Shown here piece after piece: positions 57,510-60,801 of a stretch of 64,000 bases of DNA. The notes below the pieces were generated by a model. It was not told the DNA's origin. It saw only the letters and a list, made by a program, of their open reading frames with translations, and ran no database searches. Within the stretch, counting starts at the first letter, position 1. Each line of letters starts with the position of its first letter. The position numbers and the translations under genes were made by a program. Source of the stretch: Luteibacter sp. UNC138MFCol5.1 (GTDB taxonomy: Bacteria; Pseudomonadota; Gammaproteobacteria; Xanthomonadales; Rhodanobacteraceae); NCBI RefSeq assembly GCF_900110505.1, contig NZ_FODZ01000003.1, positions 105,062 through 169,061 on the forward strand, given 5' to 3'.

Positions 57510-57727
57510 GGGATGGCCGCCTTCAGGTGCAGCAAAGCCCGCAAGCCAGCAGGAATGCGGCTCGTGGGCCTTGGGGATAAGGAATCGTAGGGCGGGTAAG
57601 AATGATAGGTGCGAACGCCCTTCCTGTCCACCGGGAATCGCTGAATGAAACGTGCGCGAATGTCGCGGGGAACCCGGCCTGACACGATACAATGCCCGCC
57701 GTGGTAGCCCATCCGAGAACCGCCCGC

Positions 57728-58411
57728 ATGCTGCTGGACCCCGCCCGCCTGGAACGTCCCGACACCGACATCAGGCACGAGCCGTTTTCGTTCATGATCG
57801 CCCATGGGCAGTTGCCGGACGACGCCCGCGGCGACCTTGACCGGGACTTCCCCCAGTACAGCAGCGCCGGCTTCTTCCCGTACGATGCGAGCGACTGCGG
57901 GCCGTCGGTCAACGAGCTGGTCGAACAGATGACCTCGCGGGAGTTCTCCGCCGCGATCGGCCGCCACCTGGGCATCGACGGGCTCGAGAACTACCCCACC
58001 CTCGTGACCCTCTGCCGCCTGCTCAACCGCCGGCACGGCACGATCCACACCGACAGCAAGTCGAAGATCGCCACCGCGCTGATCTACCTCAACCCGATGT
58101 GGCCCGACACCAGCGATGGCTGCCTGCGATTCCTCAAGTCGATCAACGACATCGACGACATCGTCGCGCCCGAGTTGAAGCCGCTGTACGGCGAGTTCGC
58201 CGTCTTCCGCCGGGCCGAGAACTCCTTCCACGGGCACCTGCCCTACGAGGGCGAGCGCCGGGTGATCCAGGTGGCCTGGCTCACCTCCGAGGAGGAAAAG
58301 GCCCGCAAGACCAAGCGCGGCAAGTTCTCGCGGGTGTTCAAGAAGATCTTCGGCAAGCTCGATCGCAGGGTCGGCGCCGACCGCGACCGGAACGCCTCGC
58401 ATCCGGATTGA
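57728..58411 (+). CDS. 2OG-Fe(II) oxygenase superfamily protein
   Basis: A 227-residue cytoplasmic protein with a double-stranded beta-helix oxygenase pattern: the metal ligands HTD (in TIHTDSKSK) and the distal His in [12 protein letters not shown], followed by RRVIQVAWL with the 2-oxoglutarate-binding Arg. The substrate is unknown. The C-terminus is rich in Lys and Arg. The ATG at 57728 is preferred; the alternative at 57692 overlaps a -10-like TACAAT (57688-57693). It is divergent from carA and convergent with the CaCA gene across a hairpin. Confidence 0.82.
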
Positions 58412-58440
58412 GCGTCGTCGCGGGTTTCCCGCTGACGCGG

Positions 58441-58510
58441 GATCGCCGATACGATCGGCTCCCACCCTCCGGTAGCTACCAACGGGTGGGAGCCGATCGT
58501 ATCGGCGATC
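58441..58510. repeat. Paired GTGGGAGCCGATCGTATCGG repeat forming a 27-bp hairpin
   Basis: A perfect 27-bp inverted repeat (58441-58467 and 58484-58510) with a 16-base loop lies between two convergent genes. Each arm is a copy of the dispersed repeat also found at 43454 and 59795 (variant T for C in the centre). It probably acts as a bidirectional 3'-end structure. Confidence 0.85.
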
Positions 58511-58519
58511 CGGAGTCCC

Positions 58520-59527
58520 TCAGCGCACCCCGAAGTACCACCCCACGAACACCGCGAAGACGCCGTAGAGCAGCCCGATCGGCATCAGCCAGCGGGCCTC
58601 GACCGCGCCGCGGCGGAACATCGTCCACAGGGCGATCACCGCCACCATCGTCACGGCACCGGCCACGATCAGCGGCGTGTCGAACAGCCACGGCGTCGCG
58701 AACAGGGCGAGCGAACTCGGAATGGTGGCCTGGATCATCATGGCGCCGGAGATGTTGGCCAGCGCCAGCCGCTCCTTGCCCTGGCGCACCCAGATCAGCG
58801 CGTTGACGGTCTCCGGCAACTCGGTGGCCACCGGGCTGAGCACCAGCGCGATCAGATGCGGCGACAGGGCGAAGTGCGTGCCGAGCGCCTCCAGCTGCCA
58901 GACGAAGGTGCGCGAGGCGATGGCGATGACCAGCAGCGCGAGGACGGTCTGCAGGACGACCCAGCTCATGGCCGGGTCCGCATCGCGCGGCCGGAACGTC
59001 AGGGGTTCGAGCTCCTCGTCCTCCGGGCCGCTGGTGTCGTCGCGCATCTCGCGCCATACGTAGAACGCGTACGCGGCGAGAAAGAGCACGCCGAGCCACG
59101 GCTTCCACGCGAACGCCACGAGGCCCAGGCCGACCTTCACCACGAAGATCGCCAGGAACCAGGACTGGTCGCGGGCGAGGCGGCGGTTGTCCACGCGCAC
59201 CCGCGTGTCCTTGCGCTTCAGCCGCTTACGACCCGCATATAAAGCGAATCCGACCACCGCATAGGCGATGGTGGCGAGCACCAGCGGACCACCCAGCGCG
59301 GCACCGACGCCGATGTCGCGCGCCTCGGGCGTCTTGCCGAAGATGACGGCGACGAAGGTCACCGCGCTCTCGGGCAGCGCCGTGCCGAACGCGGCGAGCA
59401 CCGTGCCGGTGGTGGTGGCGCCGAGGCTGAGCTTGCGCCCGAACCATTCGACACCGTTGACGAAGTACTCGCAGGCGAAATAGATGGCCCCGGCGGACAC
59501 CAGGAACAGGAAACACGTCAGCAGCAT
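58520..59527 (-). CDS. CaCA-superfamily cation exchanger, probable manganese exporter
   Basis: A 335-residue inner-membrane protein with about 10 hydrophobic segments and the two alpha-repeats of the calcium/cation exchanger superfamily: GTALPESAVTFVAVIFG in the first half and SPVATELPETVNALIWV in the second. A charged cytoplasmic loop (MRDDTSGPEDEELEPL) lies between the halves. The family usually exchanges Ca2+ for Na+ or H+. A yybP-ykoY-like Mn2+ riboswitch in its leader suggests Mn2+ export here. The ATG at 59527 begins the first membrane helix; the longer frame to 59674 would run through the riboswitch and is rejected. Confidence 0.88.
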   Translation of the reverse strand: MLLTCFLFLVSAGAIYFACEYFVNGVEWFGRKLSLGATTTGTVLAAFGTALPESAVTFVAVIFGKTPEARDIGVGAALGGPLVLATIAYAVVGFALYAGRKRLKRKDTRVRVDNRRLARDQSWFLAIFVVKVGLGLVAFAWKPWLGVLFLAAYAFYVWREMRDDTSGPEDEELEPLTFRPRDADPAMSWVVLQTVLALLVIAIASRTFVWQLEALGTHFALSPHLIALVLSPVATELPETVNALIWVRQGKERLALANISGAMMIQATIPSSLALFATPWLFDTPLIVAGAVTMVAVIALWTMFRRGAVEARWLMPIGLLYGVFAVFVGWYFGVR

Positions 59528-59539
59528 GTTCAGCTTCGA

Positions 59540-59590
59540 GGCCGGGCGAGCGCGCAGAACCGATGGCACAACGACACCGCTCGCCCGGCC
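59540..59590 (-). promoter_or_regulatory. Hairpin before the CaCA start (candidate expression platform)
   Basis: A perfect 13-bp stem (59578-59590 with 59540-59552, GGCCGGGCGAGCG/CGCTCGCCCGGCC) with a 25-base loop ends 12 bases before the start codon on the minus strand. It could close off the translation start in one riboswitch state. The role is inferred. Confidence 0.55.
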
Positions 59591-59603
59591 CGGGTAAGCG
59601 TGT

Positions 59604-59742
59604 CGATGGCCAAAGGTCTCGCCGGGCCGGCGCCGCACGGATCGTGCGACGCTGCTGTTCGCGCCATGGGGCACAAGGCCGCCAAGTCTGTTGACGCGAA
59701 CTCCTCAGGGGGAACGAGGATGGCTACTCCCCAATGACATCG
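59604..59742 (-). promoter_or_regulatory. yybP-ykoY-like manganese riboswitch
   Basis: On the minus strand the leader of the CaCA gene contains, in order, GGGGAGTAGCC (59732-59722), GCGTCAACAGAC (about 59697-59686) and GGCGAGACCTTTGG (about 59623-59610). These match the conserved blocks of the yybP-ykoY aptamer, where GGGGAGUAGC and AGACCUUU flank the two stacked helices. The outer stem is CGATG (59742-59738) with CATCG (59608-59604). A TACCAT -10-like hexamer (59754-59749) would place the RNA start near 59742. The 321-base gap 59528-59848 also holds a REP-like repeat. Confidence 0.85.
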
Positions 59743-59794
59743 GCGCGGATGGTAGCACGGGTTGCAGGATGCCGTGAGACGCGTTCGCAACGCC

Positions 59795-59818
59795 GTGGGA
59801 GCCGATCGCATCGGCGAT
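59795..59818. repeat. GTGGGAGCCGATCGCATCGG repeat, single arm
   Basis: A 24-bp single copy of the dispersed repeat beginning GTGGGAGCCGATCGCATCGG, between dapB and the riboswitch. Confidence 0.75.
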
Positions 59819-59848
59819 CCCGCGGGAGCGGGTCCGTTCGCGGAAGGC

Positions 59849-60643
59849 TCACACCTTCGCGGCGATCACATCCTCGATCGTCCACGCGCCCGGCGCCCGG
59901 CCGGCGATCCACGCGGCCGCTTCGAGCGCGCCACGGGCGAAGATCGAGCGATCCGTCGCGCGGTGACCGAGTTCGACGCGCTCGCCCTGCCCCATCAGCC
60001 ACGCCTGGTGCTCGCCGACGATGTCGCCGCCGCGCACGACGGCGAAGCCGATCGTGCCCGCCTTGCGCGCGCCCGGCCGGCCTTCGCGCGTGTAGACGGC
60101 CAGTTCGTCGAGGGTGGCGCCGCGTCCCGCCGCCGCGGCGTGGCCGAGCGCCAGCGCGGTGCCGGACGGCGCGTCTTCCTTGCGGCCGTGATGCGCTTCC
60201 ACGATGTCGAGATCCCAGCCGGGCAACGCCGCGGCGGCTTCGCGCAACAGACGGGTGAGGACGGCCACGCCGAGGCTGAAGTTGGCCGCACGCAGCACGG
60301 CGATGCGCTCGGCGGCCTTCGCCAGGTGGTCCTCGATCTCCGCCGACAGACCCGTGGTGCCGGTGACGAGCGATGCCCCGCTGGATTCGCAGTACGCGAG
60401 CGCGGCGCCGAGCCCGTCGGGACCGCTGAAATCGATGACCACGTCGGCGGACTGGGACTCGCTCCAGTCGGAAAAGCGCAGCGCCGAAACGTCGCCGTAC
60501 GCCGACTTGCCCAGACGCGGCGAGCCACTCGAGACGATCGCCTGCACCAGTTCGAAGCGATCGTCGCCGCGCAAGAGGTCGAGCAACGCGAGGCCCATGC
60601 GGCCGGAGGCGCCGCTGATGGCGAGACGGATGGGGCGGGTCAT
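59849..60643 (-). CDS. dapB: 4-hydroxy-tetrahydrodipicolinate reductase
   Basis: DapB reduces HTPA to tetrahydrodipicolinate with NAD(P)H in lysine and diaminopimelate synthesis. The 264-residue protein has the nucleotide-binding GASGRMG (residues 11-17), GTTGLS, and the catalytic segment EAHHGRKEDAPSGTA with its His and Lys. It is downstream of dnaJ on the same strand, separated by a REP element. Confidence 0.97.
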   Translation of the reverse strand: MTRPIRLAISGASGRMGLALLDLLRGDDRFELVQAIVSSGSPRLGKSAYGDVSALRFSDWSESQSADVVIDFSGPDGLGAALAYCESSGASLVTGTTGLSAEIEDHLAKAAERIAVLRAANFSLGVAVLTRLLREAAAALPGWDLDIVEAHHGRKEDAPSGTALALGHAAAAGRGATLDELAVYTREGRPGARKAGTIGFAVVRGGDIVGEHQAWLMGQGERVELGHRATDRSIFARGALEAAAWIAGRAPGAWTIEDVIAAKV

Positions 60644-60694
60644 GCGGTGGCCTTCCGATCAGGATGAACGAGGATCGTAGCAGGCGCGCCACAC

Positions 60695-60791
60695 GTAGGA
60701 GCGCGCCCTGCGCGCGACATCTTTGCGCCGTGAGCGACAGGCCCTGCTGCTCACGGCCCCAAGAGATGTCGCGCGCAGGGCGCGCTCCTAC
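60695..60791. repeat. GTAG-type REP element (copy 3)
   Basis: A 26-bp perfect inverted repeat starting GTAGGAGCGCGCCCTGCGCG, between dnaJ and dapB. The centre holds a second stem GCCGTGAGC/GCTCACGGC, so the whole element can form a two-tier cruciform. It lies within a codirectional gene pair, unlike the other two copies. Confidence 0.88.
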
Positions 60792-60801
60792 GGGGGCGGG
60801 C

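Follow-up and report, generated by a model that had tools for sequence, protein, structure and literature searches.

A yybP-ykoY riboswitch upstream of a CaCA-superfamily gene in Luteibacter points to a manganese exporter

Riboswitches of the yybP-ykoY class (Rfam RF00080) are found in front of mntP/yebN, alx, mneA, terC and yoaB genes, and GDT1/UPF0016 and MntP are known families of manganese exporters. The closest described system is BP3410 of Bordetella pertussis, a Mn exporter of the CaCA type whose gene is controlled by a yybP-ykoY riboswitch and which was published in 2021 (PMC8546581). There, BP3410 is induced by Mn through the riboswitch and changes in the aptamer abolish this induction; expression is unaffected by Ca2+, which is stated there as data not shown. 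Strains with a working BP3410 contain about 5-fold less cell Mn, and in most B. pertussis strains the gene is inactive through an internal duplication (PMC8546581). A passage in a review places BP3410 under the Ca2+:cation exchangers (PMC9936198), and for Vibrio vulnificus a yrbG under yybP-ykoY is mentioned (PMC13274385). No paper on the Luteibacter case was among the literature matches listed.

Here we describe a locus of this kind from Luteibacter sp. UNC138MFCol5.1. It is located in a contiguous stretch of 64,000 nucleotides, referred to as the window; all features lie on the minus strand unless indicated otherwise. A gene for a CaCA-superfamily exporter of 335 amino acids occupies 58520..59527 and, as in the case of BP3410, is placed directly under an RF00080 element. 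Both are CaCA proteins with two Pfam superfamily domains, and both have RF00080 in the 5' leader of their genes. Export of Mn2+ by BP3410, however, was shown at the bench, whereas we infer it for the window protein. With BP3410 as precedent, the combination of this riboswitch with a Mn-exporting CaCA protein is already known in kind, and the Mn2+ export reading is not new in this respect. The pair of hairpins in the leader and the altered ion site of the protein go beyond what the literature seen describes.

The RF00080 covariance model matched the leader in full length at 59596..59744 (model positions 1-177 all covered at 59744-59596, E 8.1e-13), and the CaCA gene starts 68 nt downstream of this match. 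The score of 58.4 bits exceeds the gathering score of 45, the outcome that the original prediction had named as support for it. A search of the whole source genome found no other RF00080 match. The original prediction had placed the conserved yybP-ykoY blocks in the right order and orientation, and all three are present at the expected places: GGGGAGTAGCC at 59722..59732, GTCAACA at 59689..59695 and GAGACCTTT, the 3' end of the aptamer core, at 59612..59620. Each of them is unchanged in 18/18 aligned Luteibacter leaders. We take GGGGAGTAGCC to be the 5' strand of the internal loop L1, and GTCAACA presumably belongs to the L3 region. In known aptamers, the Mn-sensing adenosine is located in L3 according to a passage in PMC6754395. 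The stretch GAGACCTTTGGC is unchanged in 60/60 leaders, but these leaders had been selected for GAGACC, and locus L128 was excluded for its absence. The leader folds better than 200 of 200 dinucleotide shuffles (z -2.89). In the predicted fold an outer stem is formed by 59742-59731 with 59616-59604. The claim of such a stem did not hold up on comparison: no compensated changes were found, and two of the ten pairs are broken, in 3 and 8 of the 18 leaders. The aptamer class and the conserved blocks are common to the Luteibacter leader and to the yybP-ykoY RNAs in front of the genes named at the outset. It differs from these RNAs in the exporter family downstream and in that its aptamer and start codon are separated by two hairpins that exclude each other; poly-U is mostly missing there, as is a clear Shine-Dalgarno sequence. 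The evidence supports the view that this leader represents a true Mn2+ riboswitch of the yybP-ykoY class, which would bind Mn2+ as the known class does.

For the region from the end of the aptamer to the start codon, 60 leaders were aligned (the window and 59 loci, drawn from 60 of the 80 loci given, with L128 left out because it lacks GAGACC). Three rows (L152, L155, L166) stop at a TTG slightly upstream of the ATG that is probably the start; the helices are not affected by this. Hairpin H2 at 59540..59590 (arms 59590-59578 and 59552-59540) is the hairpin of 13 bp that had been described just before the start codon; 12 nt separate the end of its 3' arm from the ATG at 59527. In the 60 leaders 93.1% of its cells are paired, two-sided changes occur at 6 of 13 pairs, and its covariation score is 0.115, compared with at most 0.092 in slid versions. 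Hairpin H1 at 59565..59611 is the upstream alternative and excludes H2, since the 5' arm of H2 is part of the 3' side of H1. Here 93.0% of the cells are paired, 8 of 19 pairs show two-sided changes, and the covariation score is 0.188 (at most 0.108 in slid versions). The scores of both hairpins lie above those of 500/500 shuffles, which ignore kinship; the number of pair types in H1 is not above the shuffles (132/500). At column 52, where seven leaders have A instead of G, the partner is U in 7/7 for H2 and in 5/7 for H1. The energy of H1 minus that of H2 is -3.0 kcal/mol for the window (median of the leaders -6.0, range -13.8 to 10.2), calculated for a stretch lacking the 5' part of the aptamer and thus only a rough guide. 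We also considered a third helix, in which the aptamer strand GCCCGGCGAG pairs with the 3' arm of H2. Although 98.7% of its cells pair, two-sided changes are entirely absent, and covariation therefore gives it no support.

In some members of the class an intrinsic terminator acts on transcription alone, and H2 or H1 might serve this purpose. H2 is GC-rich and very stable, a passage on the riboswitch of X. oryzae mentions a terminator hairpin (PMC6754395), and a run of four U follows H1 in 18/60 leaders. Such a run is found within 12 nt after H2 in only 2/60 leaders, however, and the window has one after neither hairpin. Moreover, a terminator scan of 59400-59900 gave no site in the leader and a single one inside the gene. 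A purely transcriptional switch of this type is accordingly unlikely. No promoter was found by a scan of the leader region. With the anti-Shine-Dalgarno letters that we assumed for the duplex energies, the CaCA gene reaches -1.7 kcal/mol, indicating a weak Shine-Dalgarno sequence; the values are -5.7 for dapB, -5.1 for dnaJ, -3.0 for carB and -5.9 for dnaK, for which the window ends after 12 nt of leader. Since a poly-U tract is mostly missing and no clear Shine-Dalgarno sequence is present, the riboswitch more likely acts through translation or through Rho-dependent termination than through an intrinsic terminator. For E. coli mntP, translation or Rho-dependent control is reported in PMC11647493. 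Binding of the ligand would shift the balance between H1 and H2.

Across 147 genomes of the family, RF00080 was found in 136 (120 over gathering) and at 145 places altogether. A search with the window protein gave 81 places in 79 genomes. Three of these are distant, at 26-33% identity; the other 78 have 56-100% and come from 77 genomes. A same-strand RF00080 match of at least 45 bits precedes 77 of these 78 homologues, whose genes start 1-118 nt downstream of it (median 66). According to the original prediction, close relatives with the gene but with the motif lost would speak against it. Such a loss was encountered in only one of the 78 homologues (genome G017), where even a permissive search gave no RF00080 match. 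In this genome (loci L215 and L273) the CaCA gene begins 2 nt past the dapB stop codon and the riboswitch is gone, as if the gene had joined the dapB transcript.

G017 also bears on the notion that an earlier exporter in this place left the riboswitch behind as a remnant, decayed or neutral, that no longer governs the CaCA gene, since this genome keeps the gene without the RNA. The score of 58.4 bits is likewise moderate compared with up to 98.3 bits in front of GDT1 genes. The unchanged core blocks in 18/18 leaders and the two covarying hairpins kept between aptamer and start codon in 60 leaders, however, indicate selection, so that a remnant is very improbable and a working riboswitch remains by far the better explanation.

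The upstream neighbour dapB (59849..60643) is kept in synteny. In all 15 fetched regions with a CaCA protein of at least 66% identity the gene order is dnaK-dnaJ-dapB-CaCA-2OG-carA, including the RNA-less G017; in the others the RNA sits between dapB and the CaCA gene. The 2OG-Fe(II) oxygenase gene (57692-58411, plus strand, PF13640), which is convergent with the CaCA gene, lies on its far side in 15/15 of these regions. carB is also present in 12 of them, and the regions of G009, G015 and G125 end short of it. None of these neighbours occurs in the six fetched regions with a CaCA copy of 56-60% identity. In genome G004 a riboswitch-linked MntP gene (L243) lies a few kb from dnaK-dnaJ-dapB, which is the neighbourhood of the CaCA gene in other genera than that of G004. 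By eye, intergenic repeats like GATCGCCGATACGATCGGCTCCCAC and GTAGGAGCGCGCCCTGCGCGCGAC were seen at 58440-58520, 59770-59850 and 60680-60800.

Linkage of RF00080 to CaCA genes recurs in Burkholderiales, Alphaproteobacteria and Aeromonas. From a search of a contig collection the best 80 of 455 relatives were kept, and 20 of these 80 loci were searched for RF00080. The nearest named relatives, with 85-95% protein identity, agree with Luteibacter as the genus of the source. Matches over gathering were found at 19 of the 20, among them Xenophilus, Ramlibacter and Rhizobacter (Burkholderiales); L163 has none. A CaCA homologue was present in 15 plasmid records, of which 14 were fetched. Eight of the 14 loci have RF00080 over gathering (Azospirillum, three Novosphingobium, Massilia, Aeromonas caviae and two Burkholderia), a Streptomyces plasmid homologue (L210) has a weak match of 23.4 bits, and five have none. 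Massilia putida carries a copy with RF00080 at 101 bits on plasmid unnamed1 (L208) and an RF00080-less one on plasmid unnamed2 (L209), where an IS256 transposase gene ends 156 nt upstream of the CaCA gene. Both of these copies and L205 are near dmeF (Co/Ni efflux), and the two from Massilia are also beside a gene for a metal/formaldehyde-sensitive repressor. Four of the 240 genomes in the family of Xenophilus, Xenophilus among them, hold a close homologue, each with an upstream RF00080 match that in two cases stays below gathering. A class-wide sample comprised 369 genomes, 46 of which gave a match, and with strict filters RF00080 is adjacent only in the source genome. None of the 29 distant loci fetched from this sample (our own excluded) has RF00080 nearby. 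Five distant riboswitch-less homologues (L177, L178, L179, L188, L189) are located close to tRNA genes. The second CaCA gene of the source genome, on another contig, has no RF00080 match either.

In a tree of 69 proteins, which contains several long branches flagged as unsure by the program, the riboswitch-linked clade comprises 33 rows (support 100/100), 28 of them labelled as having the RNA and five not. The linked pair from Burkholderia is separate and falls inside the distant group (100/100). The RNA label changes seven times on the tree, compared with 22.5 times when the labels are shuffled; for this labelling L210 counted as lacking the RNA despite its weak match, and L232 and L233 as having it with matches below gathering.

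The identity of the genes behind the RNA is informative for the substrate. Among the 145 RF00080 matches in the family, 77 precede CaCA genes, 56 GDT1/UPF0016 genes (43 at 45 bits or more) and seven MntP genes (four at 45 bits or more). The remaining five all score below 31 bits, three before TerC genes and two before unassigned reading frames, which are identical in their two genomes. Thus CaCA, GDT1, MntP or TerC is downstream of 143/145 matches. The matches preceding the TerC-family genes at L284, L285 and L286 are weak (26-31 bits).

CaCA and the other Mn exporters nearly exclude each other across the family. Together with GDT1 or MntP, CaCA occurs in only 7/147 genomes, that is, in seven of the 77 CaCA genomes (four with GDT1, three with MntP); in two of the latter, G019 and G074, no RF00080 was found before the MntP gene. 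Three genomes (G114, G119, G142) have none of the three, and the source genome has no match to MntP or GDT1. Fisher's exact test for CaCA against GDT1-or-MntP gave p 1.2e-29 with the genomes treated as unrelated, which overstates the evidence since they are related. Yet several genera contain both kinds: CaCA alternates with another exporter within g6, g18 (six CaCA, four MntP), g24 and g26 (one CaCA, nine GDT1), and MntP with GDT1 within g5. Two MntP matches under the cut-off (G015, G117) and the weak PF01169 matches of G054 and G069, the latter just over the cut-off with its neighbours, were left out of the count. The same applies to a second weak PF01169 match of G077, whose strong one stays counted. 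CaCA is present in each of G015, G054, G069 and G117, and with these four included the sharing would be 11/147 genomes (11/77).

The window protein matches PF01699, with its two Na_Ca_ex repeats in two stretches, at 105.1 bits (cut-off 24.9) and has the CaCA fold. This fold, with two alpha repeats each containing a PE glutamate (E53, E239), is shared with NCX_Mj and YrbG. NCX-type Na+/Ca2+ exchangers are characterized by GTSxPE plus GSNxxD/N. Both motifs are present in NCX_Mj, L066 and L067 but absent from the window protein, where GTALPE, ATELPE and GAMMIQ are found instead; GAMMIQ takes the place of GSNIxD in NCX_Mj and YrbG. By sequence alignment, S51, S77, S210, S236 and D240 of NCX_Mj correspond to A50, G80, E236, A262 and Q266 of the window protein, with the second half of alpha-1, which MAFFT had misplaced, read by eye from phmmer. 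Residues E54, E213, A47, A206 and D240 of NCX_Mj are documented in a passage of PMC11032461. For the YrbG-type calcium/sodium antiporters (TIGR00367) the window protein scores 82.8 bits, under the cut-off of 179.65. To NCLX and the CAX H+/Ca2+ exchangers, whose substrate is Ca2+, it has only 16-17% identity. Judged from these motifs, the window protein appears to belong to a CaCA subfamily with an ion site departing from that of the Na+/Ca2+ exchangers.

All three altered motifs are also present in 28/28 distant homologues analysed, none of which has RF00080 nearby. Consequently, the ion-site motifs alone are no proof of Mn transport. The methionines of the ion site were considered as a mark of riboswitch-linked members only, but this fails in part, since GAM also occurs in distant RNA-less members. 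Association with the riboswitch-linked clade is restricted to the second Met (GAMMIQ) and GGPL. There are exceptions: two Burkholderia members have the RNA but neither motif, L163, L209 and L215 have GAMMIQ and GGPL without the RNA, and L280 has GAMMIQ without GGPL. The tree contains L210 from Streptomyces only as a single cropped domain (33% of columns filled), which explains why it lacks ATELPE there; its full frame has the motifs.

A Ca2+ exporter of the YrbG/NCX type that is switched on in Mn2+ stress because the toxicities of both ions are linked is conceivable, since Ca2+ and Mn2+ stress interact in pneumococcus according to PMC11434433. Pfam and NCBIfam place the protein near the Na+/Ca2+ exchangers, and its fold agrees with this. 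Nevertheless, we regard such an exporter as improbable: the TIGR00367 score is far under the cut-off, the ion-site residues are unlike those of canonical members, and the gene is swapped with Mn exporters across genomes. In addition, BP3410 lowers cell Mn under this very RNA and, by the statement of its authors cited above, is not induced by Ca2+ (PMC8546581). The exporter association and the BP3410 precedent thus support Mn2+ rather than Ca2+ as the exported ion, and the original prediction is very likely right about the substrate.

We therefore favour, with a probability of roughly 85%, that the riboswitch raises CaCA expression at high cytosolic Mn2+ and that the cell exports Mn2+ mainly by means of the CaCA protein. 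When cytosolic Mn2+ is high, the aptamer would bind it, as expected from its class. The Mn2+-bound leader would then increase CaCA expression, the ON direction being that of the known class, and the protein would move Mn2+ outward by antiport. In the source genome, CaCA would in this way fill the place that GDT1/UPF0016 or MntP has in relatives.

A more far-reaching proposal is tentative, and we consider it more probably wrong than right. It states that the subfamily with the motifs GTALPE, ATELPE and GAM-x-x-Q has lost the side chains of both NCX Na+ sites, that E236, as a third acidic residue, and M263 enter the ion site, that all members are dedicated Mn2+/H+ antiporters and that H1/H2 is a new terminator-free output module. 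If this were true, the CaCA fold would have changed both its substrate and its coupling ion, and many riboswitch-less members could be named as Mn exporters from sequence.

For Luteibacter, Dyella, Rhodanobacter and their kin the annotation as sodium:calcium antiporter is probably wrong, and the CaCA gene product is probably their main exporter of Mn2+. How a calcium-exchanger fold came to handle manganese can be tested directly on the altered ion site. In the family, the three-way swap of CaCA, GDT1 and MntP behind one RNA means that the regulator is stable while the exporter changes.
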